Under the pieces are notes generated by a model. That model saw only the letters and a list, made by a program, of their open reading frames with translations. It ran no database searches and had not been told where the DNA came from. The position numbers and the translations under genes were made by a program. A DNA stretch of 64,000 nucleotides from Bifidobacterium lemurum (GTDB lineage Bacteria > Actinomycetota > Actinomycetes > Actinomycetales > Bifidobacteriaceae), in assembly GCF_014898175.1 (NCBI RefSeq), contig NZ_CP062948.1:2170001-2234000 (forward strand). Direction: 5' to 3'. Of the stretch, positions 38,885 to 61,988 are shown piece by piece (the first letter of the stretch is position 1; every line of letters starts with the position of its first letter).

Positions 38885-38898
38885 ATTGGGCGGACAAT
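38885..38898 (-). promoter_or_regulatory. Element-wide TGTCCGCCCAA motif, copy 1
   Basis: Read leftward the sequence is ATTGTCCGCCCAAT, pointing toward the gene starting at 38826. It matches five other copies in the element except that the A run after CCC is shorter. Confidence 0.6.
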
Positions 38899-38957
38899 GT
38901 GCGCGAATATAGAATGAACCTAGTCAACGATGATTACCACATGAGGAGATCTACGTT

Positions 38958-40100
38958 ATGGAAAAAGAAATCGACTCCGATGCAGCGTTCTATGCAGAAT
39001 TGTCCGATAACCCCGACACCTCACTGTATATCTATCGTGTGGAAGAAGTGGAGGACATTCTGCCTCAACTGGACCAAGGAGCCTTGCGGGGACTTTTGGC
39101 AGGTGGACTGTCCGTGACGCACCGAATCAATGGAGTGCGGGACATGGGCGTCACCTATGTCCCATATGTGAAGCAACCGTACGGCGGGTACTTCCGACTT
39201 AAAGAGATGGATGTTGAGTCTTTCGAGGACGGAAAGGATCTGACTGACATCAAAGCCGAAAACAGAAGTCCCGCGTTGGTTGGAATTACGGTGGACTACC
39301 TCACACGCTACATGCAAGGAACATCGAAAGAGCAAGCCTTTTCAATACCGATAATTGGTGGAGAGAAGGCAAGGAAAAGTGCTGAAAAACTGGGCCTCAA
39401 GCCGGAGACCGTCGGAGGAATAGCGGCGCGTGAATCCGAAAAAATACCCGACTATCTGGATCAAATCACGGGATTGGATGACACCTCAATAAAGGCGGCG
39501 ATGAATCTGGCATCGTTCGACTGCATATACAGAAGAGGCATTGGCGCTTATTTCCCCTTGGACCATCTGCCTGAGATGGACAGTATTACAATCGGGAATA
39601 TTCGAACTATGATCGAACGCAGCCAACGATTCATGAATCGATACGGGTCAGCGTTCACAGGAATGAACACATTTCACGGCGGATACACAGAAGTCATTGC
39701 CTTCGGCGACTGCGATACCGTGATGCAAAACGGCTTATGGGATTTCAAATGCAGCAAAGGGTCTCCCACGGCAAAGCATCGTTTGCAGCTGCTGATGTAT
39801 TGGCAGTTGGGATTACATTCCAAACATCTCGAATACAAAAACATCGAACTATTAGGAGTGTGGAATCCACGGCTGGGCAAAGCGTGGACATATCCAATCA
39901 GCAAGCTCAAGGAGGAAGACATTCTCGATCTACAAAACAGGGTGCTTGTCTTCCAACTACCGCTAAAAACAGATAAAGATGGCAACTCCTTAAACAGGTT
40001 CGCACGTGCTCGCGTATGGCGGCATCTAATTCAGCAATGGGAAATGACACATCCGAAAACCCCGTTGTTGGACGGGCCACTGGATCCGTTTATCTTCTAA
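38958..40100 (+). CDS. Candidate PD-(D/E)XK nuclease-fold protein
   Basis: A 380-residue soluble protein of no family I can name with certainty. Its last third contains FGDCDTVMQNGLWDFKCS followed by HRLQLLMYWQLGL. An acidic residue, then hydrophobic-Asp-x-Lys, then a helix with Q-x-x-x-Y matches the active site of Cas4/RecB-type PD-(D/E)XK nucleases. The N-terminal 200 residues (with a YRVEEVEDILPQL start and several aromatic turns) are unrecognised. Lower GC than its neighbours suggests transfer. GAGGAG precedes the ATG at 38958. It is divergent from two small leftward genes and is followed by topoisomerase III. A defence or DNA-processing role is possible but unproven. Confidence 0.6.
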   Translation: MEKEIDSDAAFYAELSDNPDTSLYIYRVEEVEDILPQLDQGALRGLLAGGLSVTHRINGVRDMGVTYVPYVKQPYGGYFRLKEMDVESFEDGKDLTDIKAENRSPALVGITVDYLTRYMQGTSKEQAFSIPIIGGEKARKSAEKLGLKPETVGGIAARESEKIPDYLDQITGLDDTSIKAAMNLASFDCIYRRGIGAYFPLDHLPEMDSITIGNIRTMIERSQRFMNRYGSAFTGMNTFHGGYTEVIAFGDCDTVMQNGLWDFKCSKGSPTAKHRLQLLMYWQLGLHSKHLEYKNIELLGVWNPRLGKAWTYPISKLKEEDILDLQNRVLVFQLPLKTDKDGNSLNRFARARVWRHLIQQWEMTHPKTPLLDGPLDPFIF

Positions 40101-40124
40101 AACATTGATTCCGAGCCTTTAATT

Positions 40125-40138
40125 GTCCGCCCAAAAAT
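40125..40138 (+). promoter_or_regulatory. Element-wide TGTCCGCCCAAAAA motif, copy 2
   Basis: TGTCCGCCCAAAAA, preceded by AAT, lies 61 bases before the topoisomerase start and points toward it. Confidence 0.65.
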
Positions 40139-40199
40139 CCGTCAGTTGGGCGTGAGGATGGATACGGAATGTACTCCATCACTGAAAGGAACGGAACCA

Positions 40200-42353
40200 A
40201 TGAGGCTCGTCATCGCGGAGAAAAAATCAGTCGCCGTGGCAATCGCGCAGGCACTGGAAAGCAGCCCAATACCATCCGACGGATATATACAAGCCGGAGA
40301 TGTCATCGTGTCATGGGCGCAGGGGCATCTCGTGGAACTCGCCACCCCTGACCAATACGACGGTATGCCGTGGGCGGCGGAACGATGGAGCATGGAACAG
40401 TTGCCCATCGACCCGCAGCAATGGCTTTGGCAGGTCAGCACCGACAAAGGCGCAAGCCGCAGATACCGAGACCTGGCCGACCTCATCCGACGCCCTGACA
40501 TCACCGAAATCGTCAACGCCTGCGATCCCGACCGCGAAGGCGAAGCGATATTCCGACGCATCATCGACCGCGCGCAGACCGCCAAACCATCATCAAGGCT
40601 ATGGGTCGCGAGCCTGGAAGAACAAGCCATCCGCGACGCATGGAACAACATGCTCCCCAGCAGCCAATACAACGGTCTGGCGGCAGCAGCCGATGCCAGG
40701 GCGAAGGCCGACTGGCTTGTGGGCATGAACGCCACACGCGCCAACACCATCGCCTACCACCGGCGTCTATCGGTGGGCCGCGTGCAGACGCCGACACTGG
40801 CGATGGTGGTGGAACGGGACCGCGCCATCGCCGAGCACAAGCCGACCCCGTTCTGGCGAATCGCCATCGACATGGGCGGATGGAAGCTGCGAAGCAAAGA
40901 CAAAATCAACATCCGCAGCGAGGCCGAAAGCCTGCTCGCGGAAGCGCAAGGGCGATCGGTCAACATGCTGTCAGTGGAACGCAAACGAGTGAAGACCCAC
41001 GCACCCACCCTCTATGATCTGACCGGCCTGCAAAAGGATATGTCGCGCTTGCACGGGCTGACGGCGGCGCAGACGCTGGAGGCGTTGGAACGTCTGTATC
41101 TCGCCAAGCTGACCACCTATCCACGCACCGACTCATGCCACATCACGCACGACGACCTCGCCGAACTGGAGGCCCTGACGCGCTCTGAATCGTTGGATGA
41201 ACTGATGCCGGTGACGGTCGCCGAAGCCGTCCGGGAATACCGGAACACAGACAGGCTCAATCCCTCGGCATGCGTCGCGGACGACAAGGTCTCGGGCCAC
41301 ACCGCGATCCTACCGACCAAGCGTCTCACACAGGCAAGCCTGGCATCGATGGGCGAGCATGAACGACTGGTTGCATGCCGTATCGTGCAACGCATGTGGG
41401 CGGCCTGCTCGCCGGAATACACACACGACACCACCAGCGTCACGGCATGCTTCGACCACATCACCGAGCACCTGCTGACCGCATCGAGCGATATGCCGGT
41501 GGATCCGGGATGGCGTCTCATCGACGGACCGCAAACCGACGAACAAGCCGCCCCCTCCATCCCATCATCCCTGATGGAAGGGCAGAGCATACCGGTGGGC
41601 GCGCACGCGATCTCATTGGAGGAAGGCGTCAGCGCGCCGCCGAAACCCTACACCGAAGCTACGTTGCTGGCGGCGATGGAGCACGCCAGCCGCTTCGTCG
41701 CAGATAAGGACATGAAGGCCGCGCTCGATGATGACGCATCGCATTCCGGCGGCATCGGCACGCCTGCGACAAGGGCTGAAATCATCGAAAAACTCGTGCG
41801 AAACCAGTACCTCCAGCGCAAAGGCAAGCAGCTTGTATCGACGGATGAGGGACGCCTGCTCATCGATGTGGTTTCGCCGGAACTCAAAAGCGTCGAACTC
41901 ACCGCCAGCATGGAAGCGCAGCTCTCCGACATCGAGCACGGCCGCATACAATCAGCGGTTTTCCTTGATGGAATTCGCGCCATGTGCGCGAGGATACCGC
42001 ACGACGTGCAAGCCTCGATGCGCACCGAATCCATCAGCACGGGACCACGCCGCGCGAGCCTCGGCGCATGCCCTCGATGCGGAGAAGACGTGATTAAAAC
42101 CGGCAGTGTCTGGCAATGCTCCAGCAACAAAAGCGAGAAGACCGAAAGCGGACAATGGCAGCAGACCGGCGGATGCGGATTCAAAATCTACTCCACACTC
42201 AGCGGCAAGAAACTTACCGATTCCGTCATCGGCAAACTCCTCGCGGGAAAAGCGGTGAAGCTGTCAGGATTCGTCAGCAAACGAACCGGCAAAGCCTTCG
42301 CCGCGACGCTCGTCATCGATGAGGAACGCGGCGTACGCATGCAGTTCGACTGA
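40200..42353 (+). CDS. topB: DNA topoisomerase III (type IA)
   Basis: Type IA topoisomerases pass single strands through transient breaks; conjugative elements often encode one to resolve transfer or replication intermediates. The 717-residue enzyme has a Toprim domain (MRLVIAEKKSVAVAIA, then NACDPDREGEAIF), the GRVQTPTLAMVVERD segment, the catalytic tyrosine in LTTYPRTDSCHI, and HTAILPT. A C-terminal CxxC zinc motif (ACPRCGEDV) leads to TopB tail elements (GFKIYSTLSGKKLTDSVIGKLL and FVSKRTGKAFAATLVID). The ATG at 40200 follows AAAGGA; the upstream extension to 40146 overlaps the regulatory motif region. A terminator follows. Confidence 0.95.
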   Translation: MRLVIAEKKSVAVAIAQALESSPIPSDGYIQAGDVIVSWAQGHLVELATPDQYDGMPWAAERWSMEQLPIDPQQWLWQVSTDKGASRRYRDLADLIRRPDITEIVNACDPDREGEAIFRRIIDRAQTAKPSSRLWVASLEEQAIRDAWNNMLPSSQYNGLAAAADARAKADWLVGMNATRANTIAYHRRLSVGRVQTPTLAMVVERDRAIAEHKPTPFWRIAIDMGGWKLRSKDKINIRSEAESLLAEAQGRSVNMLSVERKRVKTHAPTLYDLTGLQKDMSRLHGLTAAQTLEALERLYLAKLTTYPRTDSCHITHDDLAELEALTRSESLDELMPVTVAEAVREYRNTDRLNPSACVADDKVSGHTAILPTKRLTQASLASMGEHERLVACRIVQRMWAACSPEYTHDTTSVTACFDHITEHLLTASSDMPVDPGWRLIDGPQTDEQAAPSIPSSLMEGQSIPVGAHAISLEEGVSAPPKPYTEATLLAAMEHASRFVADKDMKAALDDDASHSGGIGTPATRAEIIEKLVRNQYLQRKGKQLVSTDEGRLLIDVVSPELKSVELTASMEAQLSDIEHGRIQSAVFLDGIRAMCARIPHDVQASMRTESISTGPRRASLGACPRCGEDVIKTGSVWQCSSNKSEKTESGQWQQTGGCGFKIYSTLSGKKLTDSVIGKLLAGKAVKLSGFVSKRTGKAFAATLVIDEERGVRMQFD

Positions 42354-42380
42354 TCTCCGCGACGCGTGGAACAACATTTC

Positions 42381-42403
42381 GGCCGGCCTTCGCCGGCCTT
42401 TCT
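42381..42403 (+). terminator. Rho-independent terminator of topB
   Basis: GGCCGGC and GCCGGCC pair around CTTC and are followed by TTTCT, 28 bases after the topB stop. Confidence 0.8.
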
Positions 42404-42423
42404 CATATCCAAAACCGTGAAAA

Positions 42424-42437
42424 TGTCCGCCCAAAAA
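42424..42437 (+). promoter_or_regulatory. Element-wide TGTCCGCCCAAAAA motif, copy 3
   Basis: A full copy 274 bases before mobC, upstream of the candidate oriT, pointing rightward. The bases after it (CAGC) are the same as in copy 6. Confidence 0.65.
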
Positions 42438-42529
42438 CAGCATTGCACGCACGCAAAATCATAACGGGCCATCACACGGACATGCAGGAGGGTCATGACG
42501 AAAACCACACCGAACCCATACCCTAATCG

Positions 42530-42660
42530 CTGCTCGAATCAACGAAAAAACCGTGGATTTCAAACCCCTCCCAGAGGGGAGGTTTTGTCGTAGCGAGCAT
42601 AGCAGGTGTACGTACACCTGCGCGACCTGACGGACCTGACGGGTCGCCCGGCACGGCCTC
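42530..42660 (+). other. Candidate origin of transfer (oriT)
   Basis: The region right before mobC and the relaxase contains CCTCCC-AGAG-GGGAGG, then TTTTGTCG and a perfect 20-bp palindrome GCAGGTGTACGTACACCTGC at 42602-42621. These are followed by GCGACC...GGGTCGC enclosing GACCTGACG direct repeats. Hairpins beside relaxase genes are the usual form of oriT. The nick site is not identified. Confidence 0.55.
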
Positions 42661-42710
42661 GCGGCCATGAGCGGGACACCCGCACCCGATACAAACGAAA
42701 GGACATACAG

Positions 42711-43112
42711 ATGGCATCTTGGAAAGGAAACAGAAGCCGTCCTCATCGCAGGTCGGTGACATTCACCGACGAAGAGCTTCGCTGGCTTGAGGACTCACGA
42801 AAAATCGAGAACCAACAACGTGCGGCGACGGGACTGCCGACGGTCGGCTGGATGCAGTTCGCCCGACAAAGACTCATAACATCGCGACGCCTATGGATCG
42901 CAGCACCACCCGGTGCCAAGGATTTATCCAGCCAGATCTCACGCATCGGCAACAACATCAATCAGATAGCACACAAGGTCAACCTCAAGAACCAAGCGGA
43001 CAGCGCAGACCTACGCGAATTGCAGGCGGAGCTTGAGGAAATCAAGGGATGCCTCAAGCGTATGGAACGCGACATGCGTATCGGGAATGAGGAGTTGTCG
43101 TGGCGTACGTAA
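42711..43112 (+). CDS. MobC-family relaxosome accessory protein
   Basis: A 133-residue protein that would help the relaxase open oriT. The N-terminus is basic with VTFTDEELRWLEDSR, resembling a ribbon-helix-helix. The centre has the MobC signature LSSQISRIGNNINQIAHKVN, and the C-terminus forms a coiled coil (LRELQAELEEIKGCLKRMERDM). GAAAGG lies before the ATG at 42711. It overlaps the relaxase start by 13 bases, a usual arrangement for relaxosome genes, and follows the candidate oriT directly. Confidence 0.85.
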   Translation: MASWKGNRSRPHRRSVTFTDEELRWLEDSRKIENQQRAATGLPTVGWMQFARQRLITSRRLWIAAPPGAKDLSSQISRIGNNINQIAHKVNLKNQADSADLRELQAELEEIKGCLKRMERDMRIGNEELSWRT

Positions 43113-44536
43113 AAGTCAAACAAATCAAAACCACGCTGCAAAAAACGATGGCATACATCACCAATCCCGCCAAGACGGAAAACTACCGCCTAGTGAGCAC
43201 GACGACAGGGGAGCGCGTAAAAAATCCCGACGCGATGGCGCAAGCGTTTCTGATGGCGCTTGACCGTGCCAAAGGCGGAGCCAAAAGGGAGAACGCGGTG
43301 TTGGCACATCACATCATCCAAAGTTTTGATCCAAACGATCCCATCACCGCCGACGAAGCGCACAGCCTCGGCGTCCGATTCATCGAGGAGCTGAGCGGCG
43401 GCGCGCACGACTACGTGATCGCGACGCATGTGGACAAAGACCACTTGCACAACCACATCCTGCTATGTCCGAACAACAACATCACGCACAAAAACATCAG
43501 AGTCCAAAAAGGCTCCCTCAAGCAATGGCGGGAAATCAGCGACAAGCTATGCGCGGAAATCGGGTTGAACGTCATTCCCGCGACCACAAAGGAACGCGCC
43601 GAGCCAAGCATGGAGGAAGTGCAGCTAACCGCCAGAGGCGAAAGCTTTAAAGACGCATTGTGCGTGATGATCGACCGTGCATGCGCAACAGCTGGAACGT
43701 TCGATGAATTCAAACGAGAACTCGCCGTGAAAGGCATCGAGGTGAACGTTCGCGGCAGCCACCTCACTTACATACTCGCGGACTCGAACCGTCGCATCCG
43801 AGACATCCGGTTAGGCATCGGATACAACGAGCTGGGCGTTATGGGCAAAATCGGCAGGGACACATTCAACGTGATTGGCTTCGACCAAAGCATGATCGCC
43901 AAACGCGGTGACGGCAAAGTGCGGGTCTGGTTGCCGGGATCGCACCGCAAACTGCTGCTGACCATCCCCATCGACCGCATCGTGCGAGACGGACGCACCT
44001 GGCGCGCGTATCTCCCCGAAGACACACGCCAAGTGATTACCGACCCCGAAGGCGGATACAAGCGGACGGTGGAATGCGACGACCTCTACAAGTGGTTCGC
44101 GCGCCCCAGTTTCCGCATCGAGGACTACGCGCGGCGGCGTCTCGACCCGTCCGACCTCAGAGGCTTGGGAAGACGCGCCATCGCCCAAGCCATCGCATGC
44201 GACCAAATCGAATCCAGCCTGGACGAACTGCGTGCGATCAGCCGCACCTTGCGTGCCGGAGACACACGACAGCAGGCATATGACAAACTCTCCGCGCAAG
44301 TCGAATCAGACGGCATCCAGATGCGCGCGCTGATCGCCGCGATCGCGGAAGCGCGGGACCACGGCGACGACACGACACAGCTCGAACTCCAGCTCGTGCA
44401 GATCGAGACCCATAGCGCCGAAACCGCGCGCAACGCGATCGCGCTGCGACGCCTCATGCGACGCAGCGACAACGAGCAGCAGCGGAAACAACAGGAAATG
44501 TCCGCCCAAAAACACCGGCATCGAGGACGAAGCTAA
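43100..44536 (+). CDS. Relaxase, MobP/VirD2-like
   Basis: This 478-residue relaxase would nick oriT and pilot the strand into the recipient. It has a tyrosine near the N-terminus (KTMAYITNPAK), the HHIIQSF motif and the metal triad HVDKDHLHNHILL. The catalytic half covers about 200 residues; the rest is a DNA-binding/accessory region with a charged helical tail. The start is the GTG at 43100 with GAGGAG five bases upstream, inside the end of mobC. The last codons, MSAQKH, are encoded by a copy of the TGTCCGCCCAAAAA motif, so coding and regulation overlap there. Confidence 0.92.
   Translation: MAYVKVKQIKTTLQKTMAYITNPAKTENYRLVSTTTGERVKNPDAMAQAFLMALDRAKGGAKRENAVLAHHIIQSFDPNDPITADEAHSLGVRFIEELSGGAHDYVIATHVDKDHLHNHILLCPNNNITHKNIRVQKGSLKQWREISDKLCAEIGLNVIPATTKERAEPSMEEVQLTARGESFKDALCVMIDRACATAGTFDEFKRELAVKGIEVNVRGSHLTYILADSNRRIRDIRLGIGYNELGVMGKIGRDTFNVIGFDQSMIAKRGDGKVRVWLPGSHRKLLLTIPIDRIVRDGRTWRAYLPEDTRQVITDPEGGYKRTVECDDLYKWFARPSFRIEDYARRRLDPSDLRGLGRRAIAQAIACDQIESSLDELRAISRTLRAGDTRQQAYDKLSAQVESDGIQMRALIAAIAEARDHGDDTTQLELQLVQIETHSAETARNAIALRRLMRRSDNEQQRKQQEMSAQKHRHRGRS
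44499..44512 (+). promoter_or_regulatory. Element-wide TGTCCGCCCAAAAA motif, copy 4
   Basis: A full copy lies inside the last codons of the relaxase, 68 bases before the next gene. A second, partial copy (GCGGAC-AAAA-GTCCGC palindrome, then CGAA) lies at about 44543-44558. Confidence 0.6.
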
Positions 44537-44580
44537 AAGTAGCGGACAAAAGTCCGCCGAACCGACAGAAAGGAGCATAC

Positions 44581-45483
44581 ATGCCGGTGGAAGACCAAGC
44601 ACAGGAATACGTCATCCGCATCGCGGAAAACGGCACAAAAGCCGTCATGGAACTCGGCAAATGGGGCACGTCAACGCTGTTCCGTTCGCTGGGCCTTTGC
44701 GCGAAGACCGCCAAAGACAAAATCGAGGAGCTACGCCGCAGCGGAGGCTTCGCCTTCCTCCGTGACCTGCAACGCGACAGCGGCACACTCAAGGTCGTGG
44801 AGATCGAAGCGGACGAATCCCGCAACATCGTCAAGCAGCTCAAGAAAAGCGGCGTCGCGTTCCACATCGAACGCGACCGCGAGACAGGCAAGACGTATCT
44901 GCACTTCGCGGCCAAAGACGCCGACGAGGTAAAGCACGCGGTCGATAAAGTGGTCGCCCTGCTCAACCAAAACGCGGAAGAGATCGAACGGTCCACGCCC
45001 CTAGGAATTTTTGAGGACACTCCGACGGGTCCCCAGTACACCATCCCCAACGGGCAGGTGCCGTTCAATCCGGACAGTCCGGACAACGGAACGTTCGACT
45101 TCGAGACCGTGGAATGGGATCGCGACGCCACAATCGTCTCATCCAACCTCACGGAACTCGGATGCCCATTCAAACAGGAGCAGATCAGCGAAACCACCCA
45201 ACGATTCACGTATCCCAGGGAATGCTCCAACGCCGTGGCGGAAATGCTCAACGACTTCAACGAATACGTGCCGGGACTTGATTGGAGCCGCATCAACATG
45301 CATCCGACGCAGGAACACGACACCGCAAGCCGTGACATGCCCGCGCCCGAACAGGCAGAGGAAAAGCCACGGCATGTGAAAACCAAATCGGAGACCATCA
45401 AGGCCATCAAACAGCGCGCGAGGGAGCGCGTCGAAGGCCAGAAGACCTCCGTGCCCAAGAAAACCCACGCCAAAACACGATAA
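44581..45483 (+). CDS. PcfB/DUF3801-like conjugation protein
   Basis: A 300-residue soluble protein. The N-terminal half (NGTKAVMELGKWGTSTLF, then GFAFLRDLQRDSGTLKVVEIEADESRNIVKQLKKSGVAFHIERD) resembles DUF3801/PcfB proteins, which lie next to VirD4-type coupling proteins and are thought to help link the relaxosome to the channel. The middle is an acidic, less ordered segment. The C-terminus holds AIKQRARERVEGQ and a basic end (KKTHAKTR), shared with two neighbours and AbiEii. GAAAGGAG precedes the ATG at 44581. It heads an operon running to the coupling protein. Confidence 0.72.
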   Translation: MPVEDQAQEYVIRIAENGTKAVMELGKWGTSTLFRSLGLCAKTAKDKIEELRRSGGFAFLRDLQRDSGTLKVVEIEADESRNIVKQLKKSGVAFHIERDRETGKTYLHFAAKDADEVKHAVDKVVALLNQNAEEIERSTPLGIFEDTPTGPQYTIPNGQVPFNPDSPDNGTFDFETVEWDRDATIVSSNLTELGCPFKQEQISETTQRFTYPRECSNAVAEMLNDFNEYVPGLDWSRINMHPTQEHDTASRDMPAPEQAEEKPRHVKTKSETIKAIKQRARERVEGQKTSVPKKTHAKTR

Positions 45484-45501
45484 GGAGAAACCATCATGGA
45501 A
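45460..45501 (+). repeat. 42-bp direct repeat, copy 1
   Basis: Covers the last codons, the stop, the ribosome site and the first codons at the junction of 44581-45483 and 45496-46653. The second copy at 46630-46671 differs by one base. It would allow deletion or amplification of the gene between them. Confidence 0.9.
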
Positions 45502-46653: not shown

Positions 46654-46671
46654 GGAGAAACCATCATGGAA
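46630..46671 (+). repeat. 42-bp direct repeat, copy 2
   Basis: Second copy of the repeat at 45460-45501, with one mismatch, spanning the stop of 45496-46653, the ribosome site and the first codons of the next gene. Confidence 0.9.
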
Positions 46672-46950
46672 ACGCAGACAAGCCTCGCGGCCGATGAGGC
46701 ACGAACGTATGCGGACAACGTGGGCGCGATGCTCGCGACGGGCATCGTGTCCGCCACGACCGCGATCAGCGCGACATACTACGCCGCCCGCACCACCGCA
46801 CCAACCGAAACTGAAATCGAAGCGGCCGCGAAAATCTACGCGGAAGCGGAATACGGCTCTGACCTGGACGACCTACCGGTCGGAAGCAGAAAAACCTGTC
46901 TCACAACGGCCAAGAGGATGCTCGAAGCGGCGAACAAGGCGGTGAAGTGA
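46666..46950 (+). CDS. Small hypothetical protein
   Basis: A 94-residue acidic, Ala/Thr-rich protein. Residues 17-42 (DNVGAMLATGIVSATTAISATYYAA) are weakly hydrophobic; the rest is helical (EIEAAAKIYAEAEYG, CLTTAKRMLEAANKAVK). I do not recognise it. Its ribosome site AAGGAG and first codons come from the 42-bp repeat. It is followed one base later by the next gene, within the operon leading to the coupling protein. Confidence 0.55.
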   Translation: METQTSLAADEARTYADNVGAMLATGIVSATTAISATYYAARTTAPTETEIEAAAKIYAEAEYGSDLDDLPVGSRKTCLTTAKRMLEAANKAVK

Positions 46951-46951
46951 C

Positions 46952-49786: not shown

Positions 49787-49789
49787 GCT

Positions 49790-49812
49790 AAGGCCCGCTC
49801 ATGGCGGGCCTT
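49790..49812. terminator. Two-way terminator between convergent blocks
   Basis: AAGGCCCGC at 49790-49798 pairs with GCGGGCCTT at 49804-49812, between the coupling protein stop and the end of the leftward operon. Confidence 0.75.
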
Positions 49813-49814
49813 AC

Positions 49815-51448: not shown

Positions 51449-51465
51449 ATCCGCTCCTTCGCTCC

Positions 51466-53094: not shown

Positions 53095-53096
53095 TC

Positions 53097-55442
53097 TTAT
53101 TCCTCGCCGAACTTGGTGGAGAACAGGCGATACAGCCTGCTGGACGTGTCGATACGCCCGTCGAACGGGATGTATGATTCAGCGGACTTGAGCATGCCCT
53201 GGCCGGGCTGGACGCCGGTGAAGAACTCGCGCTGCTCATCGGACAGCTTCAGCAGCTCGCACAAGGCGGCCGCGTCGGTCGCGGTCTGGTTCATCAATAG
53301 CAGGAACGAACTGTTGGACAGCATCAGCCGCGCCTCGTCGTTCAGCAGCAACTCCTCGATGTTCTGCGTGATGCCGGTGACGCCCAATCCCCATTTGCGA
53401 CCGCGTTTGTACAGGCGCAGGAAGTAGTCGGCCGCGAACGGATTCGAGAACAGCATGTGGAACTCGTCAACCCACAGCCATGTCCTTCGTCCCTGGGCGC
53501 GGTTGCGCACCACACGATTCCAGACTTGATCCAACACGACCATCATGCCGAACGTCTTCAACTCCGCGCCCAGGCCGGACACGTCGTAGACGACCATGCG
53601 ATTGCGCACATCGACATCCGTGGGATGCGCGAAGGCGTTGAGGCTTCCGGCGGTGTAGATCTCCAACGCTTGGGCCGCCTCGTGCGCGCGTTCCTCGTCC
53701 AGGGACTCCAGCATGTCGCGCAGGTCGGCCAGGGTCGGCATCAGGAGGCGTTTGCCGTCGCGCAGGTCACGGTACAGCGTCATCAGGCATCGGTCGATCA
53801 GCGCGCGGGCCACCTTGTCCATCCCCTCATCGCCGCCGATCAGCGCGCCGATCATGTTCAACGCGGCCGCGCACTTGGAACGGATCGGGTCACCCTCGGA
53901 ATCGTCCAGCAGTTCGATGTCCAAAGCGTTGATATGGGACGGGCTTGACTCGCCTATTTCGATGCGCTCACCGCCAAGCTGCATGCACAACGGAGTGAAC
54001 TCGTGTTCGGGATCGATGACGACCAGATCATCGTCGGGACGGGTCAGAAAGATCTGCGTGATCTCGTTCTTCGCCGCCTGGCTCTTGCCGCTACCGGCCG
54101 TGCCAAGGATGAAGCCGTTGGCGTTCATGTTTTGTGCGCGATCATAGACGACCGCATTGCCGCTCCGCGCGTTCGTGCCGGCCATCACGCCACCCGCCTG
54201 GAACAGCTCCTGCGTGGTGAACGGCAATAGGATGGCCGCGCCGCTCGTCGTCAGGGTCCGCCGCATCGGCAGCGGGTTGACCCCGAGCGGCAGCACCGCG
54301 TTGAGAGCGTCGCCCTGCATGTAGGTGAGCGTGTCCGCGACGCACGATTGCGCGTCGATCACGGCGATCACATCACGCACCAGACGATCCAACCGCTCCT
54401 CGGTCTCGGCGCACACATCGATCACGACCAAAGAGGACACCAGACGCTCGCCCTGATGTTTGAGATCGTCGCGCATCTCGGCCGCCTCATCCATCGACTC
54501 GGACAAATCATGAGGCAGATAATCGTCCGGCTGATGCCTTTTCCTATTCTTCGACCGCTCGTCGGCCGCCTGCATCTCCATCTCCGCGATCTTGCGGTTC
54601 ACCAGCTTCAACCCCTCGGCCTTGCCCTCGGGAGTCAGATGCACCGACACGGTGATATCCGCCTTGATATCGGTCAGATCCGCGATCAGCTGGTCGGACA
54701 GATAATCGGGAAAATCGCTCACATACAACACCTGATGCAGCATCGACACATCGCCGTCATCAATGGTCAGACGACGCTTGTCCCGCATATCCACCGCCCA
54801 CGGACACGCGTAATCCTTCGTGCTCGCATGCCGCCGTGCGGCGAAATCATCCTCATCAAACGTGAAGCGGGTGCCCCGGCGCAGCAGCGAATGCAGCACG
54901 CGCAGCCGTTCCCGACGGTTCAGCTTCACAGCCTCGCAGCCATACAGGCTGCGCAGTTGCGATTGAACGGACAACGCCTGACGATTCAGCAAATTAATGG
55001 CCCGCTCGTGATCGGAATTGGACAGGCTGAACGTCAGGTATTTGTCCGTCACCGTGCTCTTTGACGAACCGGACAGCTGACGGCGCACGTTGCGGTTGAA
55101 ATCCTCACGCAAATCATCATGCCCGTCACCGGCCGGAGCCATCGTGATCTGGGCGCTCACCCGCTCGGGATCGAGCGTGCGGGTCATGATCGTCTCCTCG
55201 ACGCTCACCCCGTTGCCCACGGAATTAAGGATCTGACCCCAACGGTCCACGATATCCAACTGCTGATCCTGCGTCGCGATTGCGTAATTGATATCGCCAA
55301 GACGCAGCGACACACTCCAGACATCACCGCCGAGATACATCTGACCGCCCGGCAGGAGCGCGTCATAGGCCACAAGCTCCTTGACGGACCTGGGCGCGCC
55401 CTGACGGGATGCTTCTTTCTCTGACTTTTCCTTCTTACGCAT
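53097..55442 (-). CDS. VirB4-type conjugation ATPase
   Basis: VirB4 is the universal ATPase of type IV secretion channels. The 781-residue protein has an N-terminal VirB4 region (DVWSVSLRLGDIN; ADTLTYMQGDALNAVLPLG), Walker A FILGTAGSGKSQAAKNEI, Walker B RRTWLWVDEFHMLF, and the following GLGVTGITQNIEELL typical of the TraC/TraE branch in Gram-positive elements. AAGGAGG lies four bases before the ATG at 55442. The frame is open to 55556, but that would overlap most of the C-terminus of the PrgI-like gene, whose stop overlaps this start by eight bases. Confidence 0.94.
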   Translation of the reverse strand: MRKKEKSEKEASRQGAPRSVKELVAYDALLPGGQMYLGGDVWSVSLRLGDINYAIATQDQQLDIVDRWGQILNSVGNGVSVEETIMTRTLDPERVSAQITMAPAGDGHDDLREDFNRNVRRQLSGSSKSTVTDKYLTFSLSNSDHERAINLLNRQALSVQSQLRSLYGCEAVKLNRRERLRVLHSLLRRGTRFTFDEDDFAARRHASTKDYACPWAVDMRDKRRLTIDDGDVSMLHQVLYVSDFPDYLSDQLIADLTDIKADITVSVHLTPEGKAEGLKLVNRKIAEMEMQAADERSKNRKRHQPDDYLPHDLSESMDEAAEMRDDLKHQGERLVSSLVVIDVCAETEERLDRLVRDVIAVIDAQSCVADTLTYMQGDALNAVLPLGVNPLPMRRTLTTSGAAILLPFTTQELFQAGGVMAGTNARSGNAVVYDRAQNMNANGFILGTAGSGKSQAAKNEITQIFLTRPDDDLVVIDPEHEFTPLCMQLGGERIEIGESSPSHINALDIELLDDSEGDPIRSKCAAALNMIGALIGGDEGMDKVARALIDRCLMTLYRDLRDGKRLLMPTLADLRDMLESLDEERAHEAAQALEIYTAGSLNAFAHPTDVDVRNRMVVYDVSGLGAELKTFGMMVVLDQVWNRVVRNRAQGRRTWLWVDEFHMLFSNPFAADYFLRLYKRGRKWGLGVTGITQNIEELLLNDEARLMLSNSSFLLLMNQTATDAAALCELLKLSDEQREFFTGVQPGQGMLKSAESYIPFDGRIDTSSRLYRLFSTKFGEE

Positions 55443-55806
55443 GTCGCCTCCTTGATTGTGATTGGTGCTCATTAACTGATGGTTTGGCCGATGAGTGATG
55501 GCTGGCCGGACCGTCGCGAAACAGCAGATTCGACCCGAACTTGTGCCGCAGCACATAGACGGCGTATTTTTCAGGCATCAGACCTTTCGGCCTCCACCAG
55601 CCCCACGCCGCAAGAGGCGCGCACACCACGAACAACAAGGCCGCGCCCAAATTCGTCTGATGCAGGAGCCAGAAGAACACGAACGTCTCCCCGCCACCAA
55701 CAACGAGCATCAACGCGCCGGCCAGCATCTGCCTCCAGCTCATGCCCCACTGGACCTTCGCCTCGACCCCGTGGATCTCCTTATAGACCCTCATCTGCAA
55801 AGCCAT
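55435..55806 (-). CDS. PrgI-like conjugation membrane protein
   Basis: A 123-residue protein beginning MRVYKEIHGVEAKVQWGMSWRQ, followed by two hydrophobic helices (LAGALMLVVGGGETFVFFWLL and AALLFVVCAPLAAWGWW) and a basic cytoplasmic tail. The order, KE-x(8) start and the RPKGLMPEKYAVYVLRHKF segment after the second helix match the PrgI family (VirB3-like), which always lies directly upstream of VirB4. It overlaps VirB4 by eight bases. Confidence 0.85.
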   Translation of the reverse strand: MALQMRVYKEIHGVEAKVQWGMSWRQMLAGALMLVVGGGETFVFFWLLHQTNLGAALLFVVCAPLAAWGWWRPKGLMPEKYAVYVLRHKFGSNLLFRDGPASHHSSAKPSVNEHQSQSRRRHA

Positions 55807-55815
55807 AAAACCTCC

Positions 55816-56658
55816 TCACTCGCCGGCCACCGCGCGGCTCACACGCTGGGAAAGCTGGATAACGAAGAACAACAGCACCGAAGCCATCAACAGTTGGGCG
55901 AAATGCCCGGTCACCCAACCGACCATGTCTCCCTCCGCAGCGGACAAACCAACAGCGTCCGCAACGATCGCCTGATAGATCGCCAGACAGATCAACAACG
56001 TGACCGCATTAATGCAGGTCCGCGCATACGCCTTGAAATAACCAATCGCGATTGGTTTGGTGTCGTCATGGATCAGCAATGCGAACGGCAGCGACTGGAA
56101 GGCCGTCAGCGCGTAGATCTCGATGAAGCGCACGTACATGACCACGGTCGCGATCACACTCGCCAACTGCGACAACAGGAACGGAATAAGCAGCAGAATC
56201 AGCAACGCCGCCTGGCCCATGACACCCGCATCCGATATCTGGTCACGCATCTGATCGCCAAGCTCATTGCCGGTCGCGGTGGTGTCGGCGCTCATCTGGT
56301 CCGAAACGCCGGTGACAAGCCAGCTGGAAATCGAATTGAAGGCCCGGAGGAACAGATCGGCGTTTTGAGCGGCCAAAAGCACCAATGCCACCTTGAACAA
56401 CGTTCCGGCCACGATCTTCACTCCAAGTTCGCGATCGGACTCGATACGGGTCGAGTTACGAGAAAGCTCCAGAGTGAACATGATTGCGAGGATCACGCTC
56501 GTCAACGGCTTGACCACCACCGAATGCACGCTCAAAGCCAACTGATACAGCGTCGGATTCCATGAGTCCGGCGACGCGGTGAGCAGATTGGTCACGTTCG
56601 ATCCCAGCCCACCGCCGCCGATCATGTTCAGCATGTTGACGCACCAGTCCTCAAGCAC
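55816..56658 (-). CDS. VirB6/TrbL-like conjugation membrane protein
   Basis: A 280-residue integral membrane protein with six or seven hydrophobic helices, separated by one larger loop (residues about 120-155). The arrangement, with an N-terminal amphipathic stretch, conserved VMYVRFIEIYALTAFQSLPFALL and IGYFKAYARTCI, is typical of the TrbL/VirB6-type channel proteins of Gram-positive conjugative elements (CD0411-like). The start is a GTG at 56658 with AGGG nine bases upstream. It lies between the PrgI-like and Maff2-like genes in the channel operon. Confidence 0.82.
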   Translation of the reverse strand: MLEDWCVNMLNMIGGGGLGSNVTNLLTASPDSWNPTLYQLALSVHSVVVKPLTSVILAIMFTLELSRNSTRIESDRELGVKIVAGTLFKVALVLLAAQNADLFLRAFNSISSWLVTGVSDQMSADTTATGNELGDQMRDQISDAGVMGQAALLILLLIPFLLSQLASVIATVVMYVRFIEIYALTAFQSLPFALLIHDDTKPIAIGYFKAYARTCINAVTLLICLAIYQAIVADAVGLSAAEGDMVGWVTGHFAQLLMASVLLFFVIQLSQRVSRAVAGE

Positions 56659-56670
56659 AATGATGCCCTA

Positions 56671-56877
56671 CTAGCTAAGAGCGATGCTGGAGAACAAAGT
56701 GCCAGCGGCCAGAATCAGGCCGCCGCCGACAATCTGCCACATGCCGGATTTCATGTCGGGACCATTCTGGTCCTTGAGCGCGCCGCCGAACGACACCACG
56801 CCCCACACAAGCCACAGACCACCGCCGATCTGCACGAACCGCACGAACAATTCGAGCACCTGGTTAAGGAAATCCAT
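56671..56877 (-). CDS. Maff2-like small membrane protein
   Basis: A 68-residue protein with two hydrophobic helices, VLELFVRFVQIGGGLWLVWGVVSFGGAL and SGMWQIVGGGLILAAGTLFSSI, separated by a KDQNGPDMK loop. It matches the Maff2 family, small proteins found at the head of conjugation operons and possibly equivalent to the VirB2 pilin. AAGGAG lies before the ATG at 56877; the ATG at 56892 overlaps that site. It is the first gene of the channel operon, with motif copy 5 upstream. Confidence 0.82.
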   Translation of the reverse strand: MDFLNQVLELFVRFVQIGGGLWLVWGVVSFGGALKDQNGPDMKSGMWQIVGGGLILAAGTLFSSIALS

Positions 56878-56955
56878 CCCAACTCCTTGCATATCATCAG
56901 GGTCACGCCCGATGCGCGAACCTCATACAACAATGTTCAGGCCAAACCCGCGCGG

Positions 56956-56968
56956 TTTTGGGCGGACA
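56956..56968 (-). promoter_or_regulatory. Element-wide TGTCCGCCCAAAA motif, copy 5
   Basis: Read leftward it is AATTGTCCGCCCAAAA, 79 bases before the Maff2-like gene and pointing toward it. This would be the control site for the whole channel operon. Confidence 0.65.
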
Positions 56969-56978
56969 ATTACAAAAC

Positions 56979-57010
56979 AGTCCCTCACAGCTATAAGGCC
57001 GTGAGGGACT
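56979..57010 (-). terminator. Rho-independent terminator of the adhesin gene
   Basis: AGTCCCTCAC and GTGAGGGACT pair around a 12-base loop. Read leftward the hairpin is followed by TGTTTTGT. It lies 27 bases after the adhesin stop. Confidence 0.8.
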
Positions 57011-57036
57011 TGTCATTTATCCGTCAAACCGTCGGA

Positions 57037-60000
57037 TCAGCCCGCGTGACGCGCGGAGTGCGCGCGCTGGCGGCGGACCAGGATCAGGCTGACGCCCGCG
57101 CCCGCGATGGCGACGGCGGCGACGATCATGCCGCCGATGGCGACGCCGGTCGAAGCCAGGGGCTTGTCTCGGTAGCCGGACCAGTCGTCGGTGTTGGACG
57201 TGACCTGGGTGTCGGCGCACAGCTGCCTGCCGTCGATCTCGACCCTTTCGCCGGTGACGGTGAAGCCGGGATCGACCTCGTCGCCGAACGGGTCGGACGT
57301 GTCGGCCGCACATTCGACCAGCGGGGTGCCGGTGACGATCGCGCGGTCGGTGTGATTCGACCCCTCCGAGACGCCCTTGAGCGTGCCCCTGACATCGACG
57401 CTCTCACCCGGCTTGAGCACCAGATCATCCCAGCCGTCCGGGTAGACCAAGGAGTCCATATCGATCTGGGCGTCGCCCACGATCGTGGAATCACTCAAAT
57501 CAAGGTCACTGGCCTTGAACCACGCGCCGTCGCCCGTGTCCGGATCGACACCGCTCGTGTTTGTGATGGTGAAGGTGATCTCCGTGGAGTCGCCGTCCAT
57601 CTTGAGGGCCTGGTCGGTGGAGTCGCGGTCGCCGGTCTCGATGCCGCTGGCCGTGTCCCACTTCTCGATCGACAGGCTCGGGGTCATGTCGGGCGTGCGG
57701 GTCCACACGGTGTTGGACTCGCGCGGCTGGCCGTTGAGCGTTTCGGTCCACACGTTCTCGACCTTGTCCACGACGTTGAGGCGCTTGCACTGGATGTACA
57801 GGGTCCAGCCGGCCTCGTGCTCGTTGTCGGCGCTCACCAGATCCAGGTAGGCCTGGGTCGCGTTGACGGTCACCAGGCCGTTGTCGTCGGTCTCGACGGT
57901 GAACAGCGCGCCGCCGAACTTCGAGGAGTCGAAGTTGCTTCCGGCGATGCGTTCGCCCGCCTGGGCGATCACCTCACCGTCACGGTAGAGGTCGCGGCTG
58001 GCGTAGATGGCCCATTGGCCGGTGTACTCGTCGTTGGCGGTGTCGAGCTGGTCCGTGCCGCCCCAGTCCGTGATGACCGGGTAGGCGCGATCCGTGGGCA
58101 GAATCGAGCTGTCGAGCTTGTACAAAAACAGACGATCCTTGTAGACCGAGTGGCCGTTCACGCTGTCGCCGCCCACGCTCACGGTCACGTCCTTGGAGGG
58201 GTTGATCTCCTTCAGCGGATTGGTGACGGTGTTCGTCTCGACGCGCGTGTCGTTGGCGATCTGCGTGGCGGTGTTGGAGACCACGTAGCCGTCGGTGACC
58301 TTGATGACCGTCATCGGCAGGACCACGGTGTAGGTGTGGCCCAGCAGCGACTGGTCGATCGCGGGATCCGCGAGCGGGTCATAGTCCGCGTCGGTCAACT
58401 CGCTGTAGGCCTTGAGGTCCGTGGGCTGGGGGTCGCCCGGCACGGTCTCGCCCGTCGCGTCGATGTACGTGTCCACGAGCTTTGCGAAGGCATAGACCAC
58501 GCCGTCCTGCACCTGGATGTTGAAATCGGCGGTGTGGTCCACACCGGACTCGTCCAGCACCTCGATGCCGGTCTCGTCCAGGCTCAGATACTCCTCGTCC
58601 CAGTCATCGACCATGCCCAAGCGCCACACCTTGTATGCGGCGTTGGAAAGGTCGGTGGCGTCGATGCTGACGCGGTAGTAGACCTTGTCGCCCAGGAGCG
58701 CGGTCTTGCCGTCGATGCTGATCGTCGGATCCTTCTGGGTGTCCTGCTTCTTCGGCGTGATGACCGGCGGGTTGTTCGTCACCTCGTTGGACTCGGTGAC
58801 GCCGTTGTTGACCGTCAAAGCCGCCTTGTTGTCGATGGTCTTGTCGGTCGGGGCGTCGTCGTGCACCTTGGCCTCGAAGCGCAGCAGGAGGCGCGGATTC
58901 GAGCCGGCCTGCCAGTTCGCGGCCACCCAATCCTTGCTGAAGGTCACCACGAAGCTGTGAGCATCGTCATCCCACGAGACGGTGTAGCCGGTCTTCTTCG
59001 GAATCACCGAGCCGGTGTTGAGGTCCGTGATCTCAAGCGTCTGCTTGTTCGCGGTGGTGTACTCCGAATACGTGTCCGAGAGCTTCAACACAGTCACCTC
59101 GTAGGCCTGGTCGGCCGGGATCTGGGGATCGACCCTCACCGTGTACTCCACGGTCTGGCCGGGGAACACGACCTGCTCGTCGATGTCGGACTGGTCGCCG
59201 CCCTGGGAGGACTCGGCGATGACCTGCTTGTGGATCGGGGGCACGGTCACGCAGATCTTCGGGCTGTTGGTGTCCACGGTGGAGCCGCCCACGGTCTGGG
59301 AGCCGACATTGTCGAGATCCGCGCCGCTCGGGTCAACGCAGGTATTCAGCTCGTCACCCTGCTCCTTGCCGTAGCTTTCGAGCAGTTCGGTGGTGTCGAA
59401 CTGCACGTCGAAGGTCACCAGCACGGTGATCTGCTTCGCAACCGCGAGATCCTTCTGTTCGGCCTCGTAGTCGTCGTGCGCGTTGACGGTCACCTTGGTA
59501 CCATCCGTCGTGATGTCGAAGCGGTCGGTGACATCCGTGCCGGTCTTGTTGATGCCGTCGATGCTGGAGGTCTCCGAGGTGGAGGCGTCCTGCTCATAGA
59601 CACGGATGTTGTCGGCGTCCAGATCGAGGATCGAATCGACGGCCGAATAGTCGTCCGAGAAGCTGATCTCGGGGACACGGCCCAAGCCGGTCGGCAGCGT
59701 GCCGTTGATGACCGCCGCCACTCGGTCGCCCAAGCGGAAGTAGTCGTTATCGGCACCAACCATGTCGCTCTTCGTCGGATCGGTCACCGTCACCCAGTCG
59801 CCGTCGGAGTCGAGCTTGACCCACGCCTTGTCCGGGTTCGGCGTCCACACGAACACGGGAGGTTCGTTGGTCTCGATGGTTTCGTTGTTCCAGGTCTCGG
59901 AGGCGACGTTCGTGAGCTGGATCTTCTTGCCCGCCGTCGCGCCGGCCTTGATGACGCCCTCAAGATAGAACTTCACCTCGGATTCCGAGGTCTTGAACAT

Positions 60001-61800
60001 CGTCGCGGCGATGTAGGAGGCCTTCGCCGTGGCGGTAGCGGTCCTCGCGCCCTGATCGATCACGATGTCGAACTGATCGGTCACGTCCTCGCCGTCCACG
60101 AACACCTTGCCGGACTGCCAATCGATCCACTCGGTCGAACCCGTCAGATCATCCGTGATGGAATAGGAAGCGAGAGGATTGAGCAGGTGCGCGGGCAACG
60201 TGCCGTTGACCACGACCGCGATCTTGTCACCCACAAGGAACGTCTTCGTATCGACGCCCTCCTGGTTGGTGTGGTCTGGGTCGGCGGCCTCAAGCGCGCC
60301 TTCCTCGTCCAGAACCCACACCTTGTCGGGCTGAGGGGTGACCTTGCCCACCTCGTCGCTGTTGCCGGTCTGGCAATCGGCCAGCGAACCCATGCCATTG
60401 TCACCCGTCCAGCACGCGATCGAACCATCGGAGATGGTGTAGTCCGAACCGGTCGGCTTCGCGCTCTGAGGAATATTCAACGTGTAGACGCCGGAATGCG
60501 GGTTGGTGACGTGGGCCTTGACCACACGCTTGCCCTCCTGGCTGTCATCGATGCTGATGTCGGCGGCGACCACATTGCCGGAGGCGTCGGTCACGGTGAC
60601 CTTGCTCAGATCATCCGCATCGATGCCGCCGATCACCACGTCCTTGGTCTCGATGGTGTCGTAAATCCAGAACTGCGACGAAGCAGAGGAATGCGCGCTG
60701 ATGTGCGCGGTGTACAACGAGCCGGACACAATCGAATCATTATCGTCGGTCACGGTCTCGCCCGCAGCGTTCGTCAGAGTCTTGGTCGGCGGCTCGTTCG
60801 ACGCGCTCCAGGACTCCTTTGCGTCCTGCTCGCCCGCATGGCTCGCAGCGGCGGCCATGTTGCCCTGCTTCGGCACATCGACATCGAACCAGAACGATCC
60901 CGCCGGCCACGATTCCCACGACGAATCCACATCACGATAACCGAAAGACACTTGGGTACTGCCGGTGTTCGACGCGGTGAAGCTCTTCGACGCGGTGCGT
61001 GTGGACCCGTCGACGCCACGCCAATGCAGCGTCGCGGTGCCGCTCACGTTCTCCACGGTGTTGGCCCCGCCGTTGGAAAGGCTGATCGTGTCCGACACAT
61101 CACCGGTGTCACCGGCCTTAGTCGTCGTCCCCGACGCCTGCGTCGAAATGCTCAAATCATAGGACGGATCCGCAGGCTCGTACTGATTCAGGGCAATGAC
61201 GACAAGGGAACCAGTTGATGCGCCGTTGACAAAGTCAGGTGCATATTGGTCTGCAATGATATCAACGCTCATGCCTGGCTGATCGGTAAAGATGTCACTC
61301 GTGCTGTACGATTTCCCATTGTTGTAGTAGGGGCCGCCCTGCACGGTCTGATTCCAAGCGTCCATCCAGATGCTATGAGATGCGCCAGCCACATATCCGA
61401 ACTGGCGAGATGACGTGCCAATCGCTCCGACTGCCACGACACGACAGTTCGCTGTTTCTCCTGGATGGGCTTCATTGAAACGGGCGACACAATTAGAGTT
61501 CGCTTCGTTCAGGGCTTCGTTGATCCAAGCGTCGGCACTGCCTTCGATGCGAGTCCAGTCCATTTCGAGGGCTTTGCGCACACTGTTGGTGTCCGTAGCT
61601 GATCCGAATCCGCCGTCGTTATTGTCTTGATATCGCCATGACAGGAAAAAACCGCCACCGCCGGTCGGGATTCCTCCGCCTGCGTTGCCGCCGCCTCCTG
61701 ATGCATAGGCTGTCGCGGTGCCTGCTGCCAGTCCGCCAGCCAGGACCGCAATGGATGCGATCGTAGCGCACGCCTTACGGCACTTGTTCAAAAAAGTCAT
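57037..61800 (-). CDS. Giant sortase-anchored adhesin with repeated stalk domains
   Basis: A 1587-residue surface protein. After a signal peptide (ACATIASIAVLAGGLAAGTATAYA) comes a Gly-rich segment, a unique N-terminal domain (about residues 45-200), then five or six domains of about 150-170 residues. Each begins with P-x-K or KxxDP-type starts and contains GD/V-x-Y and DxTDxFDI-like turns, resembling the antigen I/II (SspB-C2) isopeptide-forming stalk domains. The C-terminus is LASTG, a hydrophobic helix and a basic end (RRQRAHSARHAG), an LPXTG-like sortase signal. It probably mediates mating-pair or host contact. AAAAAGG precedes the ATG at 61800; the upstream extension is unsupported. Confidence 0.88.
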   Translation of the reverse strand: MTFLNKCRKACATIASIAVLAGGLAAGTATAYASGGGGNAGGGIPTGGGGFFLSWRYQDNNDGGFGSATDTNSVRKALEMDWTRIEGSADAWINEALNEANSNCVARFNEAHPGETANCRVVAVGAIGTSSRQFGYVAGASHSIWMDAWNQTVQGGPYYNNGKSYSTSDIFTDQPGMSVDIIADQYAPDFVNGASTGSLVVIALNQYEPADPSYDLSISTQASGTTTKAGDTGDVSDTISLSNGGANTVENVSGTATLHWRGVDGSTRTASKSFTASNTGSTQVSFGYRDVDSSWESWPAGSFWFDVDVPKQGNMAAAASHAGEQDAKESWSASNEPPTKTLTNAAGETVTDDNDSIVSGSLYTAHISAHSSASSQFWIYDTIETKDVVIGGIDADDLSKVTVTDASGNVVAADISIDDSQEGKRVVKAHVTNPHSGVYTLNIPQSAKPTGSDYTISDGSIACWTGDNGMGSLADCQTGNSDEVGKVTPQPDKVWVLDEEGALEAADPDHTNQEGVDTKTFLVGDKIAVVVNGTLPAHLLNPLASYSITDDLTGSTEWIDWQSGKVFVDGEDVTDQFDIVIDQGARTATATAKASYIAATMFKTSESEVKFYLEGVIKAGATAGKKIQLTNVASETWNNETIETNEPPVFVWTPNPDKAWVKLDSDGDWVTVTDPTKSDMVGADNDYFRLGDRVAAVINGTLPTGLGRVPEISFSDDYSAVDSILDLDADNIRVYEQDASTSETSSIDGINKTGTDVTDRFDITTDGTKVTVNAHDDYEAEQKDLAVAKQITVLVTFDVQFDTTELLESYGKEQGDELNTCVDPSGADLDNVGSQTVGGSTVDTNSPKICVTVPPIHKQVIAESSQGGDQSDIDEQVVFPGQTVEYTVRVDPQIPADQAYEVTVLKLSDTYSEYTTANKQTLEITDLNTGSVIPKKTGYTVSWDDDAHSFVVTFSKDWVAANWQAGSNPRLLLRFEAKVHDDAPTDKTIDNKAALTVNNGVTESNEVTNNPPVITPKKQDTQKDPTISIDGKTALLGDKVYYRVSIDATDLSNAAYKVWRLGMVDDWDEEYLSLDETGIEVLDESGVDHTADFNIQVQDGVVYAFAKLVDTYIDATGETVPGDPQPTDLKAYSELTDADYDPLADPAIDQSLLGHTYTVVLPMTVIKVTDGYVVSNTATQIANDTRVETNTVTNPLKEINPSKDVTVSVGGDSVNGHSVYKDRLFLYKLDSSILPTDRAYPVITDWGGTDQLDTANDEYTGQWAIYASRDLYRDGEVIAQAGERIAGSNFDSSKFGGALFTVETDDNGLVTVNATQAYLDLVSADNEHEAGWTLYIQCKRLNVVDKVENVWTETLNGQPRESNTVWTRTPDMTPSLSIEKWDTASGIETGDRDSTDQALKMDGDSTEITFTITNTSGVDPDTGDGAWFKASDLDLSDSTIVGDAQIDMDSLVYPDGWDDLVLKPGESVDVRGTLKGVSEGSNHTDRAIVTGTPLVECAADTSDPFGDEVDPGFTVTGERVEIDGRQLCADTQVTSNTDDWSGYRDKPLASTGVAIGGMIVAAVAIAGAGVSLILVRRQRAHSARHAG

Positions 61801-61974
61801 ATCAACCTTTTTCGCTAATTCCAGCCTCCTCGCTTCATCTGTACAGGACTGGCCGGAATCGAGATGAAACCGGCCGTCCCATACATGGTATGAGCGAAAA
61901 GGCGCGAGTCGTTTTTTCCCCGAAGGCGTCCCACGGGCGACCCGCAATATCCAGTCTCAGTGATAGGTCAGCTG

Positions 61975-61988
61975 TTTTTGGGCGGACA
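61975..61988 (-). promoter_or_regulatory. Element-wide TGTCCGCCCAAAAA motif, copy 6
   Basis: Read leftward it is ATGTCCGCCCAAAAACAGC, 175 bases before the adhesin start and pointing toward it; the flank matches copy 3. Confidence 0.65.

Follow-up and report, generated by a model that had tools for sequence, protein, structure and literature searches.

Sigma appropriation by MotA/AsiA of phage T4 replaces the -35 element of a promoter with an activator box and keeps the sigma70 -10, and AcaCD of the IncA/C plasmids is similar to SetCD, the activator of the SXT/R391 integrative and conjugative elements (ICEs). SetCD is encoded by the element itself; the single box to which it binds lies at the -35 position of its targets or immediately upstream of it, and these targets have no recognizable TTGACA (PMC4344509). 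A comparison of these systems with the 35.6-kb ICE of Bifidobacterium lemurum analyzed here shows likeness in the arrangement of its promoters and disparities in the components. This ICE occupies positions 33237-68859 in the numbering of the window, the 64-kb stretch of chromosome that was analyzed, which contains only its left part (33237-64000). As with SetCD, a single box stands upstream of several transfer operons and is oriented with them, except at a seventh copy beyond the window, and it keeps to a fixed class II position, close to a -35 that is poor or absent. Unlike the SetCD system, the host is an actinobacterium, related ICEs keep the spacing and the targets and differ in the word of the box, and the candidate activator belongs to an uncharacterized family of small, predicted coiled-coil/helix-turn-helix proteins, which we refer to as CC-HTH. 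No FlhCD-type proteins such as SetC and SetD were found by Pfam among the 39 open reading frames (ORFs) scanned in or beside the ICE (three lie outside it, one gene was scanned twice, and small ORFs were covered in part). The likeness to MotA/AsiA lies in a box that takes the place of the -35 with the -10 kept; the position of the box and the proteins differ, and we know of no homology between the T4 and ICE proteins. Our analysis indicates that the motif is probably the upstream half of a class of promoters in which the -35 is replaced by a box read by an ICE-encoded activator, forming one regulon, with box and activator paired specifically in each lineage. No account of how bifidobacterial ICEs are switched on was found in a literature search that lay outside subscription journals (e.g., PMC3218068 and PMC10832533).

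A preliminary description of this DNA had listed six near-identical copies of the motif in the window, all directed at the next gene or operon, and proposed that they are the control sites of a transfer regulon served by one regulator or a special sigma factor. All six copies were recovered within 2 bases of the positions given. The 14-base sequence TGTCCGCCCAAAAA is exact at 40124+, 42424+, 44499+, and 61975- and has one mismatch at 56955- and three at 38883- (TGTCCGCCCAATCT), a copy for which the wording is generous. Allowing three mismatches, TGTCCGCCCAAAAA has 11 matches in the window against a mean of 4.36 expected, the highest of 100 shuffles giving 9, and the five additional weak matches are no more than chance. 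Every one of the six copies does face the next co-directional gene, the start codon of the adhesin gene behind 61975- being uncertain, and the copy at 44499 does lie within the 3' end of the relaxase ORF; 182 nt separate the box at 42424+ from the mobC start, and in 29 of 34 cases, with start codons picked by a script, the start codon follows the box by 64-110 nt. The 10-mer GTCCGCCCAA occurs seven times in the ICE against a shuffle mean of 0.10 (300 shuffles, maximum 2), and the 13-mer TGTCCGCCCAAAA, the word of this lineage, occurs six times against 0.003 (300 shuffles). In the whole genome the 13-mer has seven exact copies, of which the window holds five; a sixth lies at window-equivalent 67812+, and the seventh, elsewhere in the chromosome, is the only one outside the ICE. 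All seven box copies of the ICE (the six of the window and 67812+) lie inside its 35.6 kb. Among 112 genomes of the genus, exact copies are present in six, with seven each in our genome and in G031, whose VirD4 is identical to ours, and one each in four others, and the reversed 13-mer gives three matches in total. A search for the spaced pattern returned eight matches in our genome (seven in the ICE and one in a relic, below), seven in G003, nine in G031, and zero to three in the others; its reversed control gave zero to three.

The spacing downstream of the box provides the second line of evidence. Relatives were located by their VirD4 in 44 of the 112 genomes, from which 20 regions of 40 kb were taken and 10 extended; their hosts include B. 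aerophilum (G003), Bifidobacterium sp. ESL0784 (G091), B. reuteri (G067), and B. moraviense (G050). In seven of seven copies of our own ICE, a -10 hexamer of the form NANNNT begins 29 or 30 nt past the first T of the motif, and a -10 weight-matrix scan of 16 sites from our ICE and G003 scored 2.54 against a null mean of -0.22 (standard deviation 0.45), with none of 500 dinucleotide shuffles as high. A by-eye guess from the first alignment, which put the -10 at 35-38 nt, was dropped, as the shuffle test and the hexamers place it at 29/30. Across eight ICE regions, NANNNT stands at one of these offsets in 34 of 39 sites, where about 7.5% is expected per site (0.033-0.049 per offset, two offsets), sites of related ICEs not being independent of one another; the best pair of offsets sharing neither reaches 8, and the five misses fall one each in G003, G051, G060, G091, and G084. 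When every copy of the box consensus in eight ICE regions is counted, 42 of 46 obey the spacing (own 7/7, G003 9/10, G051 8/9, G060 4/5, G020 4/4, G000b 4/5, G047a 4/4, and L145 2/2), and besides these so do orthologous-promoter sites in G091 (2/3), G084 (2/3), and G050 (3/3). The words of our ICE, G003, and G051 came from repeat counting before the spacing was known, and in six of 21 regions (own, G003, G051, G020, G000b, and G047a) the top word in an open scan of words against spacing was all or part of the box. Clustering of 9-mers at fixed offsets was not informative, GC-rich coding-type words dominating every offset. Among named genomes, 20 of 27 TGTCCG sites in the channel region obey the spacing; the other seven (L132-L136, L138, and L139) sit some 500 bases deeper and appear to be matches within coding sequence.

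Bifidobacterial promoters have the canonical form TTGACA-N17-TATAAT, in which A2 and T6 are the most conserved positions of the -10 (PMC10832533). None of the 42 obeying sites has a TTGACA -35 with at least four of six matches at a spacer of 15-19; three positions match in 11 sites, two in 28, and one in three. Taking the first base of the hexamer as -12, the box would span about -42 to -29, in the place of the -35, and the degenerate -10 (NANNNT, often GANNNT) would be read by the primary sigma factor of the host. A -35-like position with fixed spacing and a single promoter set per element would also suit a -35 element read by an alternative sigma factor of the ICE, which we consider very improbable: Pfam detected no sigma-factor domain in the 39 scanned ORFs, the A2/T6 -10 is of the primary-sigma type, and the modeled CC-HTH protein is so small that it leaves no room for a region that reads the -10. 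The special sigma factor of the preliminary description thus finds no support here, the more so as two ICEs of one genome have different boxes, and an activator that substitutes for the -35 fits better. A site overlapping the -35 could also be the operator of an ICE repressor that holds transfer off, an arrangement that autoregulation of CC-HTH would fit too and for which the enrichment of an inverted CGGACA downstream of the box (three of 16 sites against 0.34 expected, at no fixed distance) can be cited. The same enrichment could hint at a palindromic or dimeric operator, against which the varying distance speaks. We regard a repressor as improbable as well, since promoters with no -35 and weak -10s would leave little to repress unless an activator were present, and the box is directional and fixed in position, as expected of a contact with RNA polymerase.

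The proposed activator-dependent promoters are conserved in place between related ICEs. The core GTCCG(C/T)C marks three orthologous places in our ICE, G003, G091, G084, and the G050 group. Two of them precede the channel operon and the leftward gene by mobC; the third is upstream of pcfB, within the relaxase 3' end, and the box there reads CGTCCGTCC in G003, G091, and G084. The pcfB-VirD4 promoter is at the same place in G003, G091, G084, and G050, as is the mating-channel promoter in G003, G091, G084, and the G050 group. The proteins behind these conserved boxes are 69-82% (channel gene o56671), 37-51% (CC-HTH), and 33-43% (PcfB) identical to ours. As read from the DNA, the word differs by ICE lineage yet precedes equivalent operons. 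It is TGTCCGTCCAAAA at most of the 10 sites of G003, TGTCCGCCG in the G050 group, and (T/C)GTCCAAACC in G051, G060, and G020. G000b, a second ICE of the same family in our own genome (G000:C1 around 1381058-1388758), has TTCCCC(G/T)C (TTCCCCKC) before CC-HTH, mobC, the channel operon, and an adhesin-like gene, and G047a has ACACGCACG before CC-HTH, the mobC side, the channel operon, and one more gene. Since two ICEs in one genome use different words, the reader of the box would be element-encoded and a host factor is unlikely. In L145, a metagenome-assembled genome of the Bifidobacteriaceae, the word TGCCGGACGG was observed with the same spacing before the channel operon and the adhesin gene (sites 2673 and 8613).

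Abrupt changes between species in the sequence 5' of the box, as at the channel operon, could also arise if the repeats were sites of recombination or cargo exchange. In 18 G050-type loci, the conserved DNA before the channel operon starts at TGTCCG, and the preceding 40 nt sort into seven groups, at least five of them unrelated by eye. The exact NANNNT spacing across different words, the position before start codons, and the shuffle controls make both this and chance repetition scarcely credible. Together, the -10 spacing, the orientation, the conservation at orthologous promoters, and the specificity to each element strongly support the earlier proposal of a single directional control site for a transfer-gene regulon, as judged from the sequences.

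The best candidate for the box-binding activator is the CC-HTH protein, although we put its chances just short of even. Its gene diverges from topB and mobC, and its AlphaFold2 model consists of a long helix (residues 4-61) followed by two short ones (65-71 and 76-82), with block means of the predicted local distance difference test of 94-97 over residues 11-80; by this model, the last part of the protein may bind DNA. All 21 ICE regions examined have a homolog, in some cases a distant one (17-25% identity), and a box in the word of its own lineage, with exact spacing, directly precedes the CC-HTH gene in our ICE, G003, G050, G051, G060, G020, G000b, G047a, G015, and G041. Residues 77-78 of the second short helix are R77-E78 in four TGTCCG lineages, T-E in G051, G060, and G020 (TGTCCA), A-E in G047a, and Q-E in G000b, which does no more than hint that helix residues may track the box word. 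A homolog search with the single protein recovered only itself, and an alignment-based search found 272 proteins among 7996 scored candidates. None of 120 listed homologs has a Pfam domain, and those few that carry a name are called "hypothetical protein" or "gas vesicle protein." By sequence, CC-HTH has no significant match in the PDB (best E 0.096) and no convincing Pfam family (best E 0.0026 among nine members). G051 has two neighboring CC-HTH starts (L090:8578-8733 and 9818-10252), one of only 51 codons and both behind a box. Two other ICE proteins were set aside as the regulator: Rep (HTH_36) is not tied to the box, our own Rep being closest to its counterparts in G000b, G051, and G060, ICEs with different boxes, and HTH_Tnp2 was found only in our ICE and G003.

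WhiB proteins bind sigma region 4, and WhiB7 acts through an AT-rich site just upstream of a real -35 hexamer, as described in PMC3905903 and PMC10245118. As at WhiB7/SigA promoters, the box lies by the -35 position of a putative primary-sigma promoter, and the ICE encodes a WhiB-like protein (L019:1897-2412, window-equivalent 64897-65412; PF02467, E 8.7e-7, 29.8 bits, cut-off 23.6) in which the four cluster-ligand cysteines, C27, C61, C64, and C70, are invariant across an eight-row alignment. Matches were found in 15 of 21 ICE regions, several of the remainder being covered short of that place; the box-less G053, G024, and G047b also have a match and G010 does not. In Foldseek, its model matches WhiB3 and WhiB1 in complex with SigA region 4 best, at weak E values of 0.42 and 0.56. 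These features would be accounted for if the WhiB-like protein, bound to sigma region 4, read the box on its own. We consider this unlikely, since WhiB7 promoters retain a SigA-like -35, which is found at none of these sites, the C-terminus shows no conserved AT-hook by eye, and the box, which stands in the -35 position itself, is lineage-specific with a C/G-rich core rather than an AT-rich motif. The WhiB-like gene shares an operon with parA and a replication-initiator-like gene, and this rep-whiB-parA operon has no box before it in our own ICE. Also, the QxxLF ends of several orthologs suggest another role. The C-termini of our protein and of the L091, L096, L089, and L110 orthologs read QSALF, QQPLF, QGVLF, or QGSLF, which we take to resemble a beta-clamp-binding peptide; three G067-type orthologs in the alignment are without this end. 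In Streptomyces, WhiA and WhiB bind their targets only together, according to PMC4850268, so that dependence of a WhiB protein on a sequence-specific partner has been described before. Among the scanned ORFs, none encodes a recognizable WhiA-like protein; the partner proposed here is CC-HTH, and by this analogy a CC-HTH and WhiB-like pair is possible as the reader of the box.

Several observations weigh against a regulon of activator-dependent promoters served by CC-HTH. The -10 hexamers are weak, and four of the 46 boxes lack NANNNT; the CC-HTH genes of G091 and G084 are preceded by the box without the spaced NANNNT. The boxes of G000b, G047a, and L145 were partly recognized by the spacing itself, and the open scan did not rank the box first in 15 of 21 regions, G060 included. 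No box was found in searches of G053, G024, G010 contig 13, and G047b, all of which have a CC-HTH gene, and G047b has the R-E residues of the TGTCCG lineages. A check on seven new CC-HTH regions gave two clear successes, one plausible case, and four with none: G015 and G041 have TGTCCAAACC at offset 29 with more copies present, G010 contig 40 has a (T)CACGCACG word like that of G047a, and no convincing box was found in the distant CC-HTH regions G005 contig 20, G010 contig 8, G111, and G079. The CC-HTH model has no structural relative in Foldseek (best E 8.6). Finally, the seventh promoter of our ICE (L019:4812-5030, window-equivalent 67812-68030) points right, with no trusted co-directional gene.

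The features of the ICE are collected in Table 1. Pfam matches in the part within the window comprise an integrase, an AbiE pair, a topoisomerase, MobC, a MobA/VirD2 relaxase, DUF3801 (PcfB), VirD4, a CHAP hydrolase, a TraG-type (VirB4-like) ATPase, PrgI, TrbL, and an AgI/II-type adhesin; past the window end follow ParA, the WhiB-like protein, HTH_36 (replication-initiator-like), and, weakly, HTH_Tnp_2. The oriT is presumed to lie downstream of the mobC/relaxase promoter.

Table 1. Ends, putative box promoters, and selected genes of the B. lemurum ICE (window numbering).
Feature	Coordinates	Strand	Details
attL	33237-33253		GTGGTGCCCCCGGTGGG; 17-bp direct repeat with L019:5843
attR	68843-68859 (window-equivalent)		3' end of tRNA-Leu(CAA)
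CC-HTH gene promoter	38861-38896	-	Box 38896-38883; -10 TATGGT 38866-38861; start codon +70
topB promoter	40124-40159	+	Box 40124-40137; -10 GAGGAT 40154-40159; ATG 40200
mobC/relaxase promoter	42424-42459	+	Box 42424-42437; -10 CAAAAT 42454-42459
pcfB-VirD4 operon promoter, in relaxase 3' end	44499-44534	+	Box 44499-44512; -10 GAAGCT 44529-44534; ATG 44581
Mating-channel operon promoter	56933-56968	-	Box 56968-56955; -10 GAACAT 56938-56933; ATG 56877
Adhesin promoter	61953-61988	-	Box 61988-61975; -10 GAGACT 61958-61953; start codon uncertain
CC-HTH protein, candidate activator	38440-38826	-	128 aa; AlphaFold2 model; own promoter carries box
MobA/VirD2-type relaxase	43100-44536	+	Pfam PF03432
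AgI/II-type cell-surface adhesin	57037-61947	-	Pfam PF17998, PF16364; start codon uncertain

The seventh promoter runs antisense to a small ORF and then into a hairpin, and rightward boxes were observed at roughly the same place in G003 and G051. Its transcript could possibly be an antisense RNA, or read through into int in the excised circle. On the minus strand of L019, at about 4725-4902, a small predicted protein has a C-terminal CMxxHPxxG that is alike in our ICE, G003, and G091. The exact 13-mer outside the ICE (L020:8883-9310) adjoins tRNA-Ser(GCT) and has a -10 GATACT, of the NANNNT form, at offset 29; a 39-codon stub beside it resembles the start of the integrase of ICE G047a (E 7e-4), and the locus is read as a putative ICE relic.

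In conclusion, the box, its fixed spacing, its orientation, its orthologous positions, and its lineage-specific words can be read directly in these ICEs. We infer that the box acts in activation rather than repression: an ICE-encoded activator would bind it and recruit RNA polymerase, switching on its own gene, topB, mobC/relaxase, PcfB-VirD4, the channel operon, the adhesin, and the rightward transcript of the right end, and the WhiB-like protein may assist CC-HTH by bridging it to sigma region 4. Every ICE lineage would then have its own pair of box and activator. A more far-reaching version, that the CC-HTH family of these ICEs takes over -35 reading from the primary sigma factor and that recognition helix and box diverge together into a private, insulated code for each lineage, is conceivable but more doubtful than not.

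The rule of a box, about 20 bases, and NANNNT provides a sequence-level map of the putative transfer regulon in at least seven ICE lineages and points to a family of proteins that lack a Pfam domain as the likely source of the activator. The system also lends itself to tests of how transcription factors and promoters evolve in pairs, which could insulate related mobile elements in one cell; if this is true, two ICEs could share a cell without cross-activation. The rule would also help to predict the timing of DNA exchange among bifidobacteria.

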